Positions 6,656 to 64,000 of a stretch of DNA of 64,000 nucleotides are shown here, in pieces; position 1 is the first letter of the stretch, and each line of letters starts with the position of its first letter. Both the position numbers and the translations under genes were made by a program. Below the pieces are notes generated by a model, which worked only from the letters and a program-made list of their open reading frames with translations, made no database searches and was not told the DNA's origin. The DNA is from Siphlonurus alternatus (lineage: Eukaryota; Arthropoda; Insecta; Ephemeroptera; Siphlonuridae): assembly GCA_949825025.1 (NCBI GenBank), contig OX463781.1, forward strand, positions 8,682,648-8,746,647. Reading direction: 5' to 3'.

Positions 6656-7225
6656 ATTATAGCTAAATAAGTAAAACAACAACAAGAAAACGACACTATT
6701 ACGTAAGAATACAAATGCATAAAATGCGAAATAGAAATTAAATTATATTTATTTACGATTTTATTAAAATATGTATACAAAAACAGTGCAACGATATAAA
6801 CTGATTATTGCTACGTATTAAGTATATTAAAAGAAGAAATGTACACATAATTATCAATAATATAATTAACTGAATGACAAGTCTATATAGCAAAAAGCAG
6901 ACTCAATAAATAGGTACACCTAATTACTGTGTCCTAAAAATTCGCGAAATATTCACGTGTACTAAAACGCATAATTTAAGTGAAGTACGTTTTGTTTATA
7001 AAGTAAAGTGTAAACAAAGATAGGGAGCCTACCGCAAGTGGGAGGGGACTCTTCCGCCATGTGTTACTGATACGACCCTGGGCCAATTACTGTACTTTTT
7101 TTTACGTAAAAACTCCCATCCATAATCGAACGAACATCGCTTACATGACTTATTTATATAACCTATCACTATGGTACATATTTTTTTTAGTAAATTTAAT
7201 AAAAAAAATAACAAATTTGACTTAC
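6656..7225. other. Start of NR5A intron 1, non-coding
   Basis: This AT-rich stretch lies directly downstream of the receptor exon's splice donor. The exon's reading frame stays open by chance to a stop at 7029-7031, but the protein beyond the donor (residues after 235) no longer resembles a nuclear receptor. That supports splicing at 7225/7226 rather than read-through. No other feature was seen. Confidence 0.6.
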
Positions 7226-7931
7226 CTTCAAGTTTCATGCCTACTTCAAGACATTTTTGAAAACGACAGTAAGGACATCGTTTTCTTTGTGTCTTATCAA
7301 TATGGCAGCTTCGATCAGCTACACAAGTATATACTTTTTTATTTTGAACGGTTCTCTTGAAAAAACCTTTGCATGATTCGCATGTAAGAAGACCATAGTG
7401 ATATCCAGAAACTTTGTCTCCACACACTGGACACAATTCTTCAATAATTTCCTTAGTGTCCGGTAATTCTGGTGCACCGGTAGATGAACCGGTGTTTCCT
7501 GCAGTTGCACCGGTGTTACCACCTCCACTTGTTCCAAGACCCACAGTAAAATCGGTCATGCTACCGGTAGATCCACCTGAAGAACCAAACAGACATGACG
7601 GATCTAAATTATTGAATGTATGAATCAATAATGATGATCCATTATTGTTGCCAGAAGAATTGTTATTTCCATTGCCATTGTTATTTGAAGAATTTCCGAT
7701 ATTATTGGTAGAAGTTGCACCTCCTATTTGTCCACCATGTATATTTGTGGTATGATAATTGCCAGAGTTGTTACTAAATAGAACCATGTTGTTACCATTG
7801 CTATTATTTTGTCCGTTTGGGCTTGTATTGCCTCCTGTACTAGCAGTGGTAGACATGGATAGCGATGGACTTAAATAAAAAGGTGGCATATTCAGTGATG
7901 CTAATGAATGGTGATCCATTTCTAATAGCAT
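7226..7931 (-). CDS. ftz-f1: NR5A (FTZ-F1-type) nuclear receptor, first coding exon
   Basis: This exon encodes the N-terminus of an orphan nuclear receptor transcription factor of the NR5A group. The ATG is at 7929-7931, with an in-frame TAA nine bases upstream. Residues 1-155 are a low-complexity A/B region rich in Asn, Gly, Ser and Thr. Residues 167-222 form the zinc-finger domain: finger one CPVC...CESC (167-187) with P-box CESCKG, finger two CVADRSC...CPYC (203-222). The exon continues through [14 protein letters not shown] and ends after 235 codons plus one base at a GTAAGT donor. NR5A proteins bind YCAAGGYCA as monomers. [16 protein letters not shown] is protostome FTZ-F1-like rather than vertebrate SF-1/LRH-1-like. 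The FTZ-F1 box and ligand-binding domain must lie on later exons that are not in this window. An internal start at Met5 is possible. Confidence 0.96.
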
Positions 7932-8980
7932 AGCAATTTAATATAAATTGTTTTTAAATAATAAATTAATTGTCACTTAATAAAATATATTTAAAAAAAT
8001 ATATTATTATACACTGTTTGATGATTTTTTTTTTGTAATAAATATCAAAGTACACTATGACACCATAGCACCAATGTTAGATACAGAATAATAATAAAAT
8101 TTATTTTTCTATTATTCACTGTTTGCCACATCACTCATCACACTTAAAATATTTTATCAACACACAAAATAATCCAGTTGTGGGTTAAAAAATTAAAATT
8201 CCAAATTATTGTTAAAAAATCACTAGAGTAACACTTGACACTGTGAAAATATTGCTCGTGGTAAGTTCACCACTGACAACAAAAATCCACGTTGATGTCG
8301 ATTTACGAAAAGCACGCACCACACTACCACCACGAGAGAAGGATAAAACACGACCGCTCTACTCGGTGATACAATGGTAAATGATTAGAAGCCTATGTAA
8401 TAAGTGAAAGTGAAGTTATAGTAGGGTTGACCTACTTTCCCACTGCCTTGCGCCTGCTTTTGACTGTATGGTATAGACGAGTGCGCTATACGCCACCACG
8501 AAGAGAGGAGAGGAGTAGGACTAAGCTAACACTGTACAGTCCCAACAGCAGTAGTGGCAATACACCAGCGACACCGAGCGGCGAACATACTAACATATAA
8601 GTGAGAGTGGTGGACCATATTGGTGGTGGTAAAAAAATATATTATAAAAAAAACATAATTATATAAATATAGTGGGGAAATATTATAAAAGTAAAGAGAC
8701 AAAAGTGGGGATTTTATTTTATAAAGTGGGAGTAAAATATAGTAGAGGGGGGTATATATATGTGATAGAAAAAGAGGGGAAAACGTTTATTAAGGTACGA
8801 ATGAAGGTAGGGGAAATATTACGTAGGGAGGGTACACAAGTAGGGGTAAAACGTCGTGGTTAGCCTACTGACCTAGTTTTGGGTAAAGTTCTCCTCCCTC
8901 TAAGTTCCCCTCTTCTCTCTCTTGCTCGATGTAGCGCCCGCGCCAAACGAATGGCCTGCCTCACTAGGCGGCTCGATGCG
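7932..8980 (-). promoter_or_regulatory. Putative NR5A 5' UTR and proximal promoter
   Basis: This is the upstream flank of the receptor's start codon. No convincing splice acceptor precedes the ATG, so the 5' UTR is probably contiguous with the coding exon. Base composition rises at 8270-8580 and again at 8880-9000, where CpG is frequent. A perfect ROR/Rev-erb-type element (AAAGTAGGTCA on the gene strand) is at 8428-8438, and a second (AAACTAGGTCA) is at 8869-8879. The plus strand of 8580-8870 is strongly purine-rich with G runs. The transcription start cannot be placed from sequence alone. Confidence 0.4.
8428..8438 (-). promoter_or_regulatory. ROR/Rev-erb (HR3/E75) response element upstream of NR5A
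   Basis: The minus strand reads AAAGTAGGTCA, an exact match to the WAWNTRGGTCA element bound by ROR/HR3 and Rev-erb/E75 receptors. It lies about 500 bp upstream of the receptor ATG in the same orientation as transcription. The same 11-mer recurs at 46147-46157. HR3 activation and E75 repression of FTZ-F1 are established in Drosophila. Use of this site here is an inference. Confidence 0.45.
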
Positions 8981-29157: not shown

Positions 29158-30718
29158 ACACGCACAGAAAAAGTTAAACTTTTAGTTTTAAAACCAAACC
29201 TTTTACGCACTAAATGTTGTACCTAACGCGTAAAAGTATTAGATTTAAAACTTTGAGAGACTAAAATGTTATCCAGAGAAAAAGAATTAAATGTTAACCT
29301 GTATAAGAGAGTAAGTTTCAAAACTTCTCGGTGGTTAGTGTTCTAGCCTGCTAGCAGGTTAGGTTCCCAGCCGCCTAACGCACTAAGATTCTAGTCTTTT
29401 AGCTCGGTAGGTTTTTATCTTTCTAGCAGGATAAGATATTAGCTTTTAACAGTTTTAATTTTTATCCTGTCTACATGATAGATTGGATCGAGGGAATCAG
29501 GAATTCCGGAGTTGCCAAACTTCTGCAGCAGTACTAGTAGTGCAGTACTTAGTAGTACTCGATCGTGATGATTTTATTAGTGTTCCTTGCAGCGAGACTA
29601 ACATTGAACCCATCGTTATGAAGTTTGTAATCCAGGGCATAGGTAACAGCAAGTTTCCTGCATGTATCTGAAACAATTAAGAGAACAATATTAAAATTTA
29701 TAATTATAAAAAAAATGTAACTTATTTTACCTTATAAATAAGTTCCTTCAAGCAGCGACTTTGCGTTGAAAAAAATCATTTTTTTCCCGTCTTCCGTGTG
29801 ATGTTATCTTCTTCTGAAACATATTAGAACAACAATTTATTCCATGCTATTGAATTAATAATGATAAATAAAATTAAAAATATGATTTACACTTACCAGT
29901 TATAGGTAAATTCAGACACGAATTGCTTGCTCAACTGCCCAGAGACGACTGAACGACGCCAAGGCTGGATGATGGTGAAGGCGCATCTTCAACGCGCAGA
30001 AAACCGTTAGGTTTTATACACTTAATAAGGGATGGTTTTTTAGCCTTTTGAGGGATTAATATTCTAATAATACATAAAGGTTACCATCATAAACTATAGT
30101 ACTAAAATCTTATCCCTCTACGGCATAATTTTTTAAACTCTTAAAATACTAACTTTCTAGACCTTCAAGAGTTTAACTTTTTAACTTGTAGCGTTTAATA
30201 TGTTAGCTTGCTACAGGTTAGCTTCCTGTGTAAGACTTTAAAGTACTAAGAACGTAACCTGCTTCGCGATAACTCTTTATAAGTTTAAAAGACTAGCTTT
30301 CTATCCTTTCAAGAGTGTAAATTTTTATCTTGTTACGCTAGTTTGTTAAACTGCTACAGGATAGCTCCAATAGTAAGACTTTAAAATACTAAAAACGTAT
30401 CCTGCTTTAGGATAACTCTTTATACGCTTTAAAATACTAGCATTTTAGCCTTTCAAGAGTGTAAATTTTTATCTTGCAGTGACTAGAATGTAAACCTGCT
30501 AGAGGATAGCCTCCTATATGTAGAATTTAAAACACTAAGTTCCTATCTACTTAAAGACTAACATAGTATCTTATCCTTCCAGCAGGTTAACTTTTTAATA
30601 TTTTTTCTCGTTAGTGTCTTAGAGGTTTTAAAAGTTAACCTAAAAGGATTAAATGTTAACCTAAAAGGCTAAAACTCGGAGTTAACCTTTTAAAACACTA
30701 ACTAGTTTTCCTCCGTGT
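29158..30718. mobile_element. 1.56-kb element with internal tandem repeats
   Basis: The left end (ACACGCACAGAAAAAGTTA) and the reverse complement of the right end (ACACGGAGGAAAACTAGTTA) are similar, suggesting imperfect terminal inverted repeats. The right half holds about 3.5 copies of a roughly 145-bp unit, with the phrase GACTTTAAARTACTAA recurring near 30233, 30376 and, degenerately, 30522. Short motifs such as GTTAACCT and CCTTTCAAGAG recur throughout both outer parts. A non-repetitive insert (about 29460-30010) interrupts it. No transposase was recognised. It is probably a non-autonomous DNA transposon; a satellite-like array is the alternative. Confidence 0.55.
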
Positions 30719-57533: not shown

Positions 57534-57683
57534 TTAAGCCTTTTGCTTGGCCTTCTCGATCATCTCACGGGAGATGATGAGACGCTGGATCTGAGCGGTA
57601 CCCTCATAGATCTGGTAGATCTTGGCGTCACGCATCAGCTTCTCAACGGGGTACTCGCTGTTGAAACCATTGCCACCAAAGAT
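57534..57683 (-). CDS. ACADM: ACADM last coding exon (catalytic glutamate)
   Basis: Medium-chain acyl-CoA dehydrogenase of mitochondrial fatty-acid beta-oxidation; it makes a trans-2-enoyl-CoA and passes electrons through FAD to electron-transferring flavoprotein. This exon follows a TTTCAG acceptor and encodes 49 residues to a TAA stop. It contains most of the second family signature ([19 protein letters not shown]) and [12 protein letters not shown], whose Glu in YEGT aligns with the catalytic base Glu376 of mature mammalian MCAD. The C-terminus ends EKAKQKA, as expected for full length. It is the 3' end of the gene. Confidence 0.97.
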
Positions 57684-58231: not shown

Positions 58232-58402
58232 CTGCACAGCGTCAGTAGCGCACTTGTTGGCCACGTCTCCGGCCAGAGCCTTGGCGATAGAGGCGTAGTA
58301 CGAGTTACGACGGCCCTGGTCAACCTCCCAGGCCGAGCGCATCCAAGCTAGCCGGGATGTCTCCACACCAATGGCCATCTCAGCGAGCATGAATGCCACA
58401 GC
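58232..58402 (-). CDS. ACADM: ACADM exon, C-terminal helical domain
   Basis: Bounded by a GTACAG acceptor and GTGAGA donor, both in phase 0; 57 codons. It encodes [20 protein letters not shown] to ATDAVQ, the C-terminal alpha-helical domain that contributes to the tetramer and flavin site. The final Gln begins the second acyl-CoA dehydrogenase signature, completed by the next exon. The residues match vertebrate MCAD ([25 protein letters not shown]) closely. Confidence 0.97.
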
Positions 58403-58600: not shown

Positions 58601-58702
58601 CTGATGGTGAGCGATGGGCACACCGAAAGTCTTCCTCTCAAGGGCGTACTTCATGGCCTCGTCCATGGCCCTCTGAGCCAGACCAGTTGCTCCTGCTGCC
58701 AC
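58601..58702 (-). CDS. ACADM: ACADM exon with flavin-contact ERKTFG motif
   Basis: 34 codons, phase 0 at both ends (TGTAG acceptor, CAG/GTAAAC donor). It encodes [20 protein letters not shown] then [14 protein letters not shown]. The ERKTFG segment carries the Arg, Thr and Phe that contact FAD of the neighbouring subunit in the MCAD family. Confidence 0.97.
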
Positions 58703-58760: not shown

Positions 58761-58901
58761 TGGGGGCCTGGTCTTGTCGAAGGCTCCCATGGCGATCTTG
58801 AAGCCAGATCCCTCACCAATCAGAACATTCTCCTTGGGCACTCGGACATCCTCAAATGTGATTCCTCGGGTGTCAGAGCAGCGCTGGCCCATGTTGATTT
58901 C
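58761..58901 (-). CDS. ACADM: ACADM exon, beta domain to CoA-binding region
   Basis: 47 codons, phase 0 at both ends (ACTCAG acceptor, CCA/GTAAGT donor). It encodes [20 protein letters not shown] through [20 protein letters not shown] to [21 protein letters not shown] forms part of the acyl-CoA binding region in the family. The match to vertebrate MCAD is nearly residue for residue ([12 protein letters not shown]). Confidence 0.97.
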
Positions 58902-59109: not shown

Positions 59110-59218
59110 CTTCCTGCCAGGGGTCAGTCCAGGGGTTTCTCGCTCTACAATGAAGCCGGTGAAGGCCTTGCTTGCCGGGCACTTGGGGTCAGGGTTTGAT
59201 CGAGCCAGGACGAAGTAC
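59110..59218 (-). CDS. ACADM: ACADM exon, beta-barrel domain
   Basis: 109 bases: one base completes the Trp codon begun in the previous exon, then 36 codons to a phase-0 AAG/GTGAGT donor. It encodes [20 protein letters not shown] then [16 protein letters not shown], the middle beta domain of acyl-CoA dehydrogenases. Confidence 0.97.
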
Positions 59219-59563: not shown

Positions 59564-59694
59564 CAGTTGGCGACTCCTCCGTTGGTGATCCACATCTTCT
59601 GTCCGTTGATGATCCATTCGTCTCCCTTCTTCTCGGCACGGGTCTTCACTCCGTTCACGTCAGAGCCCGCACCAGGCTCCGTCACGCAGTAGCC
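59564..59694 (-). CDS. ACADM: ACADM exon with FAD-binding signature
   Basis: 131 bases (43 codons plus two bases) after a TGCACAG acceptor, ending AACTG/GTCAGT. It contains the first acyl-CoA dehydrogenase signature ([14 protein letters not shown]) and [10 protein letters not shown]; in MCAD these hold the Thr, Ser, Trp and Thr that pack on the flavin. The donor GTCAGT is non-consensus at +3 but is confirmed by the phase-2 join to the next exon (WYFVLARS). Confidence 0.97.
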
Positions 59695-59756: not shown

Positions 59757-59837
59757 AGCAACGAGGGGTTCCTCAATAAGACGTCCCAGATACTTCTTCT
59801 GCTGCTCTTTGTTGCCGGCAATGATTACGGGAGTTTG
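59757..59837 (-). CDS. ACADM: ACADM exon following the alternative pair
   Basis: 27 codons, phase 0 (GTTGCAG acceptor, GCT/GTAAGT donor). It encodes [20 protein letters not shown] then IEEPLVA, matching the QMPIIIAGNDQQKKKYLGR region of vertebrate MCAD. It joins in frame to either of the two alternative exons upstream, each of which ends on a complete GGA codon. Confidence 0.97.
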
Positions 59838-60269: not shown

Positions 60270-60370
60270 TCCCAGTCCGCTACCCTCCATTGCAGTCTTG
60301 ATTCCGGTGCAGCCGTACGCAAACTCCTCCGCAATGAGACAGCCGTCAAAGACACCCATGTCCATACCAC
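60270..60370 (-). CDS. ACADM: ACADM alternative exon A (canonical MCAD pocket)
   Basis: 101 bases: two bases complete the Gly codon started by the upstream exon, then 33 codons to GGA/GTAAGT. Acceptor is TTCTTGCAG. It encodes [20 protein letters not shown] then [13 protein letters not shown], corresponding to vertebrate [20 protein letters not shown] then VQTAIEGNSLG. It keeps the Thr and Glu of the TAxEG motif; the Glu aligns with Glu99 of mature MCAD, at the floor of the fatty-acyl pocket. Exon B, a second version of the same exon, lies 31 bp upstream. Inclusion of both would shift the frame. This copy encodes the ordinary medium-chain enzyme by sequence similarity. Confidence 0.95.
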
Positions 60371-60401
60371 CTGCAAGAACACTTACTGCTTAGCTACTTA
60401 C

Positions 60402-60502
60402 TCCAATGGTGTTAATTCCGAGGACAGCGTTGATTCCAGCGCAGCCGTAAGCAAATTCCTCAGTGATCAGGCAGCCATCAAATACCCCCATACCAAGGCC
60501 TC
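60402..60502 (-). CDS. ACADM: ACADM alternative exon B (divergent pocket)
   Basis: Same length (101 bases), same phase and same donor context (GGA/GTAAGT) as exon A; acceptor CACTTGCAG. It encodes [20 protein letters not shown] then AGINAVLGINTIG. It is identical to exon A at 20 of 33 residues; ten of the 13 differences fall in the last 13 residues. The TAMEG segment becomes AVLGI, so the pocket-floor Glu is replaced by Gly. The frame is open and both splice sites are intact, so it is not an obvious pseudoexon. It joins the same upstream exon (giving HCGGLGMGVF, closer to vertebrate CGGLGLGTF) and the same downstream exon. Expression is inferred, not shown. Confidence 0.93.
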
Positions 60503-61046: not shown

Positions 61047-61538
61047 AGTAGGACTGTATTAACTATTTCTTTCACACAACATTGGAGTACACATTCTAGA
61101 GCACCTGTATACAGAAGCCATACAAATGTATTTGTGTTAATCCTCTATGCAAATGAAGAAGTACAGTAGTACTGAAAACTTAAATGACTTTTTCTTGAAT
61201 GCTGCTCCATGCATACAATGTGTATTTCATTAAAAATATATTTTTCATTGAGATGACTGATAATCTAAGACCATGATCTAGGATGATCTAGACTGGACAA
61301 TTTTCAAAATAATTACAATACAGTAGCATCTTATTGGTATTGTTGTAAAGTTTAGATATGAATTATCTAAAATCATAATAAAGGAGGAGTTTTAAATAAA
61401 CCAATACATATTACATTGTATAAAAATATGTACAATTAATCTGTTCAGTACCAATAGCATGATAGAAGTCTTCTCTTTTTTACTACAACAACAGTGAATT
61501 ATTTCTGAAGTTGGGTTGACACACAGAAACAATAAATT

Positions 61539-62256
61539 ATGTTAGATATTATTTGCAAAACAACAACAAATTACAAATTTAATCTAACCATGATGTTATT
61601 GTATTCTAAAATAAATGAATGTTGGAAGGAACAGAGGAATTTTCTGAGATTGTGGTGTAATAAAATGAATATTGTGTTCACTAAAGATAATTACAACGCG
61701 TTGTGTCGTAGCGCGGGCCTTCATTCACTGAAAGTGAGGCGTGATATTAGTGATTTGTTATTCATGCATCGAATCCTCAATAATTGTGTTAATTCATGTA
61801 AAATTTTGAGTTTGTTCTGTTTGAATGCGCCTCCTCGGTACAACCGTCACACTGTGCTCTTCAAGCCTCCGAGGGGGCGTGTTGATGCATCAAAGTTTGT
61901 TTTTTCTTCAAGAGTGCAAAATCTCTACAACAAATTTGTATCTGATCATAGTAATGTGGACATATTCAACTCTTCTTTATGTCAATTTCGGACCAATCTG
62001 ATGAACGCTCTGTTTTAAGTTTTTTTTTTTTTTTTTTTGTTTTTTTGTTTTTTTGCTATTTATTGTGCATGACTATTATTTTACTGTTTTTTTTTTGTTT
62101 GTTTTTTTTTTTCCTTTATATTTATATTATAGTCATTTTTATTGGTACTATTATTATGTGTTTTTTTTTTGTATGTTGTGTTATTGACTTTATTATATTT
62201 GGTCATTGGTTCTGTAACTGTTGCCGAATAAATAAGAATTTTTATTTATCAAGAGC
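61539..62256 (+). mobile_element. 5'-truncated non-LTR retrotransposon (3' end of LINE)
   Basis: A plus-strand open frame (61539-62018) encodes the C-terminal tail that follows reverse transcriptase in CR1/Jockey-like LINEs: a LKVRRDISDLLFMHRILNN helix, an R-rich PPRYNRHTVLFKPPRGR segment, then SSRVQNLYNKF and CQFRTNLMNAL. After the stop comes a T-rich 3' UTR (62019-62220) ending near GAATAAATAAGAATTTTTATTTATC. The catalytic reverse transcriptase and endonuclease are absent, so it is dead on arrival. It lies antisense to ACADM, with its 3' end about 10 bp from an ACADM splice donor. The first residues of the frame may not belong to the element. Confidence 0.7.
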
Positions 62257-62266
62257 AGGGACTCAC

Positions 62267-62434
62267 CGCAGTGCTGTGGGATGTGGTTGTTGAGCAGTCC
62301 AAGGGCCCACGCCTTCTTGACGAGGTCCCAGGGGTACTCCATGGTCCTGTCATACTCGGCAGCCTTGGGGATGATCTCCTCCTTGGTGAACTTGCGGGCA
62401 AGGTCCTGGAACTCCTGCTGGGTCTCGTTCAGCT
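62267..62434 (-). CDS. ACADM: ACADM exon, N-terminal helical domain
   Basis: 168 bases (two bases, 55 codons, one base) between TTTCAG and TGCG/GTGAGT. It encodes [20 protein letters not shown] then [20 protein letters not shown] then [16 protein letters not shown], matching the MCAD N-terminal domain ([28 protein letters not shown]). The last Gly codon is split and is completed by either alternative exon. The preceding exon, with the start codon and mitochondrial targeting peptide, was not found; it should lie between here and the promoter at about 63.75 kb or beyond. Confidence 0.96.
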
Positions 62435-63740
62435 CTGAAACAAGAGAGAGCAGTTGATGACATTACTACCAAGTCACGGAGCTTTAGTCTAGCCGTAGAA
62501 GCTGGCAATAATATTAGATAGTGTTGCTGTAAGTTCTTTGCAATGAGATATTAGAATGTGAAAATTTTAGTGGCTTAATCGAAAGAAGGGGTAAAAATAT
62601 GGTACTGTGAATTTTTTCACATTTTTCTGAGGCCGGGAACTATTTTTAAAAAATTATTGAAAGTCTGTTTTATGACGTCACGGGCGGCACTGCCCCATTC
62701 TTTTTCTTAAGCAGTGCCACCCGTGACGTCTTCAAAATAGACTTTCAATAATTTTTTTAAAAATAGTTCCCGGTCTCAGAAAAATCTGAAAAAATTCACA
62801 GTACCATTATTTTTACCCCTTCTTTTGATTAAGCCACTAAAATTTTTACATTCTAATATCTCATACTGGGCCTACTGGTTTTTACAATTTAAAATTATAT
62901 GTCGAGTGCCATATACCGTGAAAGAATAGAAGAAGGGAGAGTGCCATAACATTTAACAAGCAAAGGAAACATTTTCATATGCGGAGTAGGCTGTAATTAA
63001 TTTTATTTAAGGTTGGGAGATCTCTCACCCCTGGCCATGTTTATATTTTGTCAAATATCAAACATTCAGTACCCATTTTAGTTTAATGCATTAAAAATTG
63101 TCATATTATCAAAATGTTATGTTAGAAAATCTACACCTGCTTGCCCTCCCAAAAATACTATTTTAAACATCCTACATTAAACTAAGGGGTTTCAAAGTAG
63201 TATGTAATTAATAAATAGAAGTACCCAATAGGGTTTGATTAAAAAAAAAAAACAATAAAATAAAACACTAAGGGGGAGGCGGGGAAGCAGAGTGTTGAAT
63301 TGTATTAAAATAACATTTTTTTTTTAAATAAAAATAAAAATAAAGTGTGGTCAAATTTCTCTTTCTTTTTATTTTTACACTGTATTTTTTTCTTACACTG
63401 GTTGTTTTGTATTTTTAACAAAATGTTGAAATCAAGCAACAATAAATGTATAATAACAAATATAAAGTCAGAGCAAACTTGAGTAGAAGGCCACAACACG
63501 ACCGCGCCCACTTTTCAATAGCCGTCCTACTGAGCAGCAGGTTTGCGTGTAATCAAATGGGAGAGGACTTCACTTTGGTCACGGTTTACGACAATTACGC
63601 TGTATACTAGAGTTTTCAAAATGAAACAAGTTTAACTCTAATATAGTTTAATCTTACTGGACAACCTTTTTTTTCACGCAAAAACAATATTAATACACTT
63701 AAATTAAACTTTTATGAACCCGACTTCTGCTACTTCTGTT
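62435..63740. other. ACADM first intron and unlocated 5' exon
   Basis: Contains the palindromic element at 62543-62864. A short ATGGCCAGG with a following GTGAGA donor-like sequence on the minus strand near 63033 was considered as a start exon but is too short for a targeting peptide and is unsupported. The 63480-63620 part is GC-richer and may be 5' UTR. No ATG occurs on the minus strand there. Confidence 0.4.
62543..62864. mobile_element. Long palindromic element, 322 bp (hairpin family B)
   Basis: The ends ATGAGATATTAGAATGTGAA and complement pair, and the arms pair for about 145 bp around a centre near 62705. The inner 55 bases per arm (GGGAACTATTTTTAAAAAAT, then TTATTGAAAGTC, then ATGACGTCACG) match the element at 20693-21014, while the outer parts are different between the two elements although inverted-identical within each. 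It lies in the ACADM intron, about 110 bp upstream of the exon acceptor at 62434. Confidence 0.8.
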
Positions 63741-63745
63741 ACATC

Positions 63746-63802
63746 TGCGCATGCGCCGGCATGCGCGAAGTAATAAAAGTCAGTTTACTGGCGATGACGT
63801 CA
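63746..63802 (-). promoter_or_regulatory. Putative ACADM promoter: NRF-1 sites and CRE
   Basis: TGCGCATGCGC at 63746-63756 is the full palindromic NRF-1/alpha-PAL site, followed by a second half site GCATGCGCG (63760-63768) and a perfect CRE TGACGTCA at 63795-63802. NRF-1 and CREB jointly control many nuclear genes for mitochondrial proteins in animals, fitting ACADM transcribed leftward from here. A gene starting rightward beyond the window, or a bidirectional promoter, is an alternative. Confidence 0.5.
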
Positions 63803-64000
63803 TATGAACATTGAAAGCCTTTCTTCATAGCGAGTGACTTTCACTTTACTTAATTGCATTTTCTATACTTTGTATATATCAAGTAAAGTTATTTACTACA
63901 TCGAAAATAATGTATGAAAGTTGATTCAAGTACTTTTGTAATTTCAATATTTCGTGACGTCATGATACATTACTAAAGCTTGGAAGATAGAACCAAGTTC

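Follow-up and report, generated by a model that had tools for sequence, protein, structure and literature searches.

Two described pairs of mutually exclusive exons come closest to the candidate pair reported here. The Gate-domain exons of ACSL1 and ACSL6 likewise form a mutually exclusive pair in a fatty-acid enzyme, and they encode a 26-residue substrate-channel motif proposed to set activity (PMC1543647). They belong, however, to the acyl-CoA synthetase family, the exchange stressed there is that of one aromatic residue, Phe or Tyr, and forms lacking both exons occur, which in the ACADM pair described below would break the reading frame (PMC1543647). Exons 4a and 4b of OGDH also sit in a mitochondrial metabolic enzyme, and their joint use is precluded by branch points lying too near the upstream donor, 25 to 41 nt in human (PMC7969005). 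OGDH differs in that calcium sensitivity is switched rather than the substrate pocket, and in having a longer intron whose branch points lie at a distance from the acceptor; its mechanism was mapped experimentally with minigenes (PMC7969005). The ACSL1/ACSL6 pair is the closest in logic and OGDH 4a/4b the closest in mechanism.

A catalogue of human mutually exclusive exons assigns steric interference to 57 clusters (9%) and, to 377 (60%), exon lengths that are no multiple of three, and ACADM has no occurrence in its main text as available (PMC5740500). Within the acyl-CoA dehydrogenases, the dimensions of the acyl cavity in LCAD likewise depend on the start of the helix that concerns us here, helix E, but LCAD is encoded by a separate gene and its pocket is widened by a proline, Pro132, that exon B lacks (PMC11153573). 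No mutually exclusive or duplicated exon pair in an acyl-CoA dehydrogenase was found in the titles and abstract openings of the open-licence literature searched, in keeping with the initial annotation, which knew of no widely described case in MCAD; the available text of a review of tandem exon duplication gave no matches for the other terms checked (PMC9013439). Mcad (CG12262) is given as the probable ACADM orthologue in a Drosophila paper whose text contains neither "isoform" nor "splic". Mutually exclusive exon pairs are thus known as a kind, and an instance in the acyl-CoA dehydrogenase family appears to be new.

A ten-exon ACADM gene

The stretch of DNA analysed (the window, 64,000 nt) carries on its minus strand an ACADM-type gene that runs from 62434 to 57534 when its exons are joined at their splice sites. 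The gene has 10 exons, with both members of the pair counted; AG precedes all ten, and GT follows all nine that have a downstream intron. The constitutive exon upstream of the pair, E2 (62267-62434, 168 nt, donor GTGAGT), ends in a G at 62267 that opens a codon to be completed by either member of the pair. Then come exon B, the diverged copy (60402-60502, 101 nt), a gap of 31 nt (60371-60401), and exon A, the canonical MCAD version in which Glu99 is retained (60270-60370, 101 nt). The constitutive exon E4 (59757-59837, 81 nt) lies downstream and is followed by E5 (59564-59694, 131 nt), E6 (59110-59218, 109 nt), E7 (58761-58901, 141 nt), E8 (58601-58702, 102 nt), E9 (58232-58402, 171 nt), and the last coding exon, E10 (57534-57683 for the coding part, with a TAA stop at 57536-57534), all on the minus strand; the labels E2 and E4 to E10 are our own numbering. 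The equivalent of the catalytic Glu376 sits in E10 and is common to both isoforms. Read from 62434 on, the reconstructed product is open and has 384 residues with either A or B. The protein start and the transit peptide were not found on reading positions 62435-64000 by eye.

The name ACADM, given in the initial annotation, is borne out by matches to medium-chain acyl-CoA dehydrogenases. Isoform B matches MCAD across residues 1-381 (E = 2.9e-199), and, of the acyl-CoA dehydrogenases with solved structures, those most similar to it over the full length are of the medium-chain type: six medium-chain sequences score 658.8 to 665 bits, and the next sequence scores 384.6. Its alignments to solved MCAD chains are gapless over residues 1-381 (4p13) and 1-380 (1udy); we take 4p13 to be human MCAD and both 1udy and 3mdd to be pig MCAD. 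Pfam assigns acyl-CoA dehydrogenase N-terminal, middle, and C-terminal domains to the product, and the gene is presumably similar to Drosophila Mcad.

Two other features lie in the introns. Upstream of E2, at 62543-62864, there is a long inverted repeat with nested arm pairs of 66, 57, 29, and 26 nt, the arms being 88 to 96% complementary, with GACGTCAC near the center; it has the look of a fold-back transposon. On the plus strand at 61536-62015, within the intron that separates E2 from B, there is an open frame of 160 residues that has no Pfam match and that we regard as reminiscent of a retroelement protein tail. Elsewhere in the window, a minus-strand open reading frame of 302 residues at 7032-7937 has an N terminus rich in Asn, Gly, and Ser and a zinc finger of the nuclear-receptor type (Pfam zf-C4, 109.8 bits), and presumably encodes a relative of ftz-f1. 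Together with the likeness to Drosophila Mcad, this frame points to arthropod DNA. A tandem array at 30141-30538 comprises 2.8 copies of a 144-nt unit with an 80% match.

Geometry and relatedness of the pair

Exons A and B are adjacent on the same strand, equal in length, of the same phase, and homologous in sequence, as mutually exclusive exons are. Each completes the codon opened by the single G from 62267 and ends in phase 0; each has an AG acceptor ahead of it and the identical donor junction GGA|GTAAGT. They share 67 of 101 nucleotides and 21 of 34 residues with the junction codon counted, or 20 of 33 without it. The initial annotation had reported this geometry, the 20 of 33 identical residues, and the splice partners 62267 upstream and 59837 downstream, and all of these hold on the sequence and in the reconstructed gene.

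Chance similarity of the two exons is ruled out both by tblastn, in which A against B scored 45.1 bits and the next best sites in the window scored 18.1 (A) and 17.7 (B), and by scattering the 34 differences at random over A, where none of 20,000 trials kept at least 21 residues with an open frame (mean 13.5 residues kept, maximum 21). We likewise infer that the pair is no assembly or allele artefact, because its members differ at 34 of 101 nucleotides while preserving the protein and lie in one contiguous stretch. A tblastn search with A and B found no third copy of the exon within the 64-kb window.

The pair occupies the position of a human exon that we take to be "exon 5", also 101 nt long in human. 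The last codon of exon A is the equivalent of human codon 129 (c.387), and for human ACADM a donor variant, c.387+1delG, and p.G129R (c.385) have been reported (PMC8025081). The E6/E7 junction of the window corresponds to human c.708/709, where c.709-1G>A has been reported (PMC8025081); a third human junction, c.945, is without a match here, the window equivalent being 951.

Predicted barriers to joint inclusion

The gap between B and A is 31 nt, compared to 58 and 62 nt for the next-shortest introns of the gene, and holds the B donor GTAAGT, a second GTAAGT, a branch-like CTAAG, and the A acceptor, TTCTTGCAG. The CTAAG is the single yTnA match in the gap; its branch-like A lies at +12, 11 nt past the first base of the B donor, with 19 nt remaining before exon A. 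The steric limit on the distance from donor to branch point is about 50 nt (PMC5740500, PMC7969005). A TTAAC within exon B, 41 nt before A, was considered as a branch point and rejected, there being six AGs between it and the acceptor AG of A. The second GTAAGT, at 60381-60386 and 15 nt past the B donor, would on use add Val-Ser-Ser-stop, and an AG ending at 60386, if it served as the acceptor for A, would add five in-frame residues (worked by hand).

Inclusion of B and A together, or of neither, shifts the frame and leads to an early stop, and retention of the 31-nt gap gives GVSS followed by an in-frame TAA stop. The initial annotation had named two enforcement devices, an interval too short to be an intron and the loss of frame with both exons or neither; both are present, the gap falling below the other introns of the gene with its branch-like site 11 nt from the donor, and the reconstructed products ending early. 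Mutually exclusive use of A and B can be inferred from these features.

The acceptors of both exons are weak. Over positions -20 to -5 the pyrimidine fraction is 0.38 (6/16) for B and 0.50 for A, compared to 0.56 to 0.81 for the other eight, so that the polypyrimidine tracts of B and A are the weakest two of the ten acceptors, B the lowest; this suggests that the choice between them is probably regulated. Folding of the sequence around the pair revealed no stable RNA structure (z = 0.15, with 54 of 100 shuffles folding as well), and Rfam gave no matches on the window.

Divergence of exon B

Over the whole exon, A and B differ with dN of 0.25 and dS of 2.5 (Nei-Gojobori), a pairwise count that cannot assign changes to one copy or the other, and the differences fall into two parts. 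Across the first 22 codons the copies agree in 18 of 22 residues; they differ there at 18 nucleotides, distributed 3/1/14 over codon positions 1/2/3, an excess at third positions (14 of 18; binomial p = 0.00014), with dN of 0.093 and saturated dS. In the last 12 codons only 3 of 12 residues are kept, the differences are spread 5/5/6, dN is 0.70, and dS is 0.59. The contrast between the two parts gives Fisher p values of 0.002 for residues and 0.035, which is modest, for codon positions. Compared with human MCAD over the first 22 residues, B keeps 16 and A 15, and with pig MCAD B keeps 16 and A 14; B is as near to the human protein there as A is, and so is no more decayed than A in that part. 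Over the last 12 positions, the human residue is retained at 7 sites in A and at 3 in B, and the pig residue at 6 and 4, respectively. This pattern of differences suggests that both copies have been selected as protein, the case for selection on B drawing on the A/B and human comparisons. A dN/dS ratio near 1 over 12 codons fits relaxed constraint equally well and is no proof of positive selection.

The last 12 codons would thus be as expected if B were a decaying or unused duplicate, a relic skipped while the gene runs on A only, and no other of the ten acceptors has as low a pyrimidine fraction as that of B. We consider this unlikely, given the low dN with saturated synonymous change in the first 22 codons and given that the B frame is open, its length unchanged, its acceptor intact, and its donor junction the same as that of A, whereas random placement of the 34 differences introduced a stop in 61% of the 20,000 trials. 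The same stretch of 22 conserved residues bears on the idea that the pair serves mainly to switch expression, with frame-shifted splice products tuning the level of MCAD through decay and no second enzyme being made. Early stops do arise from inclusion of both exons or neither, or from gap retention, and human ACADM exon 5 has been called vulnerable, a small proportion of it being skipped (PMC11077056). A poison exon, however, needs no conserved 22-residue coding stretch, and B yields a full open protein, which makes such a switch improbable as the main role of the pair.

The pocket helix and ETF docking

Residues are numbered here as in mature human MCAD, that is, query residue plus 14 in a gapless alignment, so that the exon covers residues 71-104 and its divergent part residues 95-103. 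Over this part A reads K-T-A-M-E-G-S-G-L and B reads N-A-V-L-G-I-N-T-I; relative to A, B has K95N, T96A, A97V, M98L, E99G, G100I, S101N, G102T, and L103I. Exon A agrees with human and pig MCAD, and with two myxobacterial enzymes (56 to 57% identity), in having T96, A97, and E99, all three of which are changed in B. Isoform A accordingly has the TAxE pocket-helix motif with Glu99, and isoform B has A-V-L-G at 96-99. In a scan of bacterial sequences, 238 stretches yielded 159 relatives; among the 80 of these that were kept, the two myxobacterial enzymes have 56 to 57% identity and the other 78 have 25 to 39%, too distant to inform the helix. Viral contigs gave 27 pattern matches and no relatives.

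B shares Asn101-Thr102 and a leading GGLG with pig MCAD, at which sites A has Ser-Gly and GGMD; these features common to B and the pig enzyme hint that the duplication may be old.

Seven residues have been named in the ETF-docking pocket of MCAD, including Leu102, Leu104, and Ile112, and the precursor-to-mature offset is 29, from Glu405/Glu376 (PMC11153573). Three of the seven fall inside the exon, those just named, at mature positions 73, 75, and 83, where human MCAD has L/L/I, B has L/M/I, and A has M/M/I, hydrophobic throughout. The swap therefore appears, on sequence grounds, to spare ETF docking and to alter the pocket.

We take Gln95 and Glu99 to form the pocket floor of MCAD; in the open-licence literature searched, no paper was found by residue name for such a floor, and none among those listed mentions Glu99. 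A glycine pair may lie at the pocket floor of VLCAD; it plays no part in our argument. The start of helix E decides the size of the acyl cavity in LCAD, where Pro132 unwinds the helix and the pocket is lined by Ile136 and Ile140 (PMC11153573), and the pocket of VLCAD reaches 12 Å past that of MCAD (PMC9237092). By a gapless count between the shared AY and G, LCAD Pro132, Ile136, and Ile140 correspond to MCAD 95, 99, and 103, a correspondence that a fragment alignment of LCAD moves in part by one residue. The helix-unwinding proline of LCAD is absent from exon B, and a Gly-Ile pair common to B and LCAD was dropped as a candidate once the LCAD residues had been aligned to MCAD. An acidic residue is absent from the helix stretch in LCAD, VLCAD, SCAD, and B; A and human MCAD have one. 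With Glu99 also lost in SCAD, its loss marks a departure from the medium-chain type and does not give the direction. Longer or bulkier substrates are favored as a reading because B replaces a charged side chain with glycine; against this, A97V and G100I add bulk nearby that could shrink part of the pocket.

Isoform B might instead be a catalytically dead or weak product that serves as a regulatory subunit in mixed tetramers. The replacement of T96, A97, and E99, all kept in the five MCAD-type sequences compared, together with that of residues 98 and 100, would suit this reading. It is nevertheless very improbable: the catalytic Glu equivalent is encoded by the last exon, common to both isoforms; B stays hydrophobic at the three ETF-pocket positions that the exon covers; and the helix segment varies widely among the active LCAD, VLCAD, and SCAD.

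Proposed model and its implications

We think it likely that the two exons are a mutually exclusive pair derived from a duplicated ACADM exon and that B specifies a competent dehydrogenase with a remodelled acyl-pocket wall and a probably shifted preference. An ancestral ACADM exon, corresponding in position to human exon 5, would have been duplicated in tandem. A spliceosome on the B donor and another on the A branch site could not co-assemble, so that one exon would be used per pre-mRNA, and any products with both exons or neither would be lost as frame-shifted. Isoform A would be the ordinary medium-chain enzyme. Isoform B would have the same fold and be a competent dehydrogenase in which ETF docking is retained and the start of helix E is remodelled, and its preference for chain length or branching would probably be shifted, most likely to longer or bulkier acyl-CoAs. 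The choice between A and B would probably be regulated.

A broader version, which we offer tentatively and hold to be somewhat less probable than not, is that the one ACADM gene gives two dehydrogenases with different acyl-chain ranges, that the arrangement is old in the lineage and takes on some of the task of a separate long-chain gene, and that tissue or diet regulates it.

Among the acyl-CoA dehydrogenases, fatty acids of different chain length are handled by the products of separate genes. If the proposed reading is true, one gene may yield two enzymes of differing substrate range, and the pair would be a natural domain-swap experiment, in which the catalytic base is the same, ETF docking is kept, and the pocket wall is changed. 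It would then allow the residues that set chain length to be tested directly, and it would be a splicing switch over beta-oxidation.
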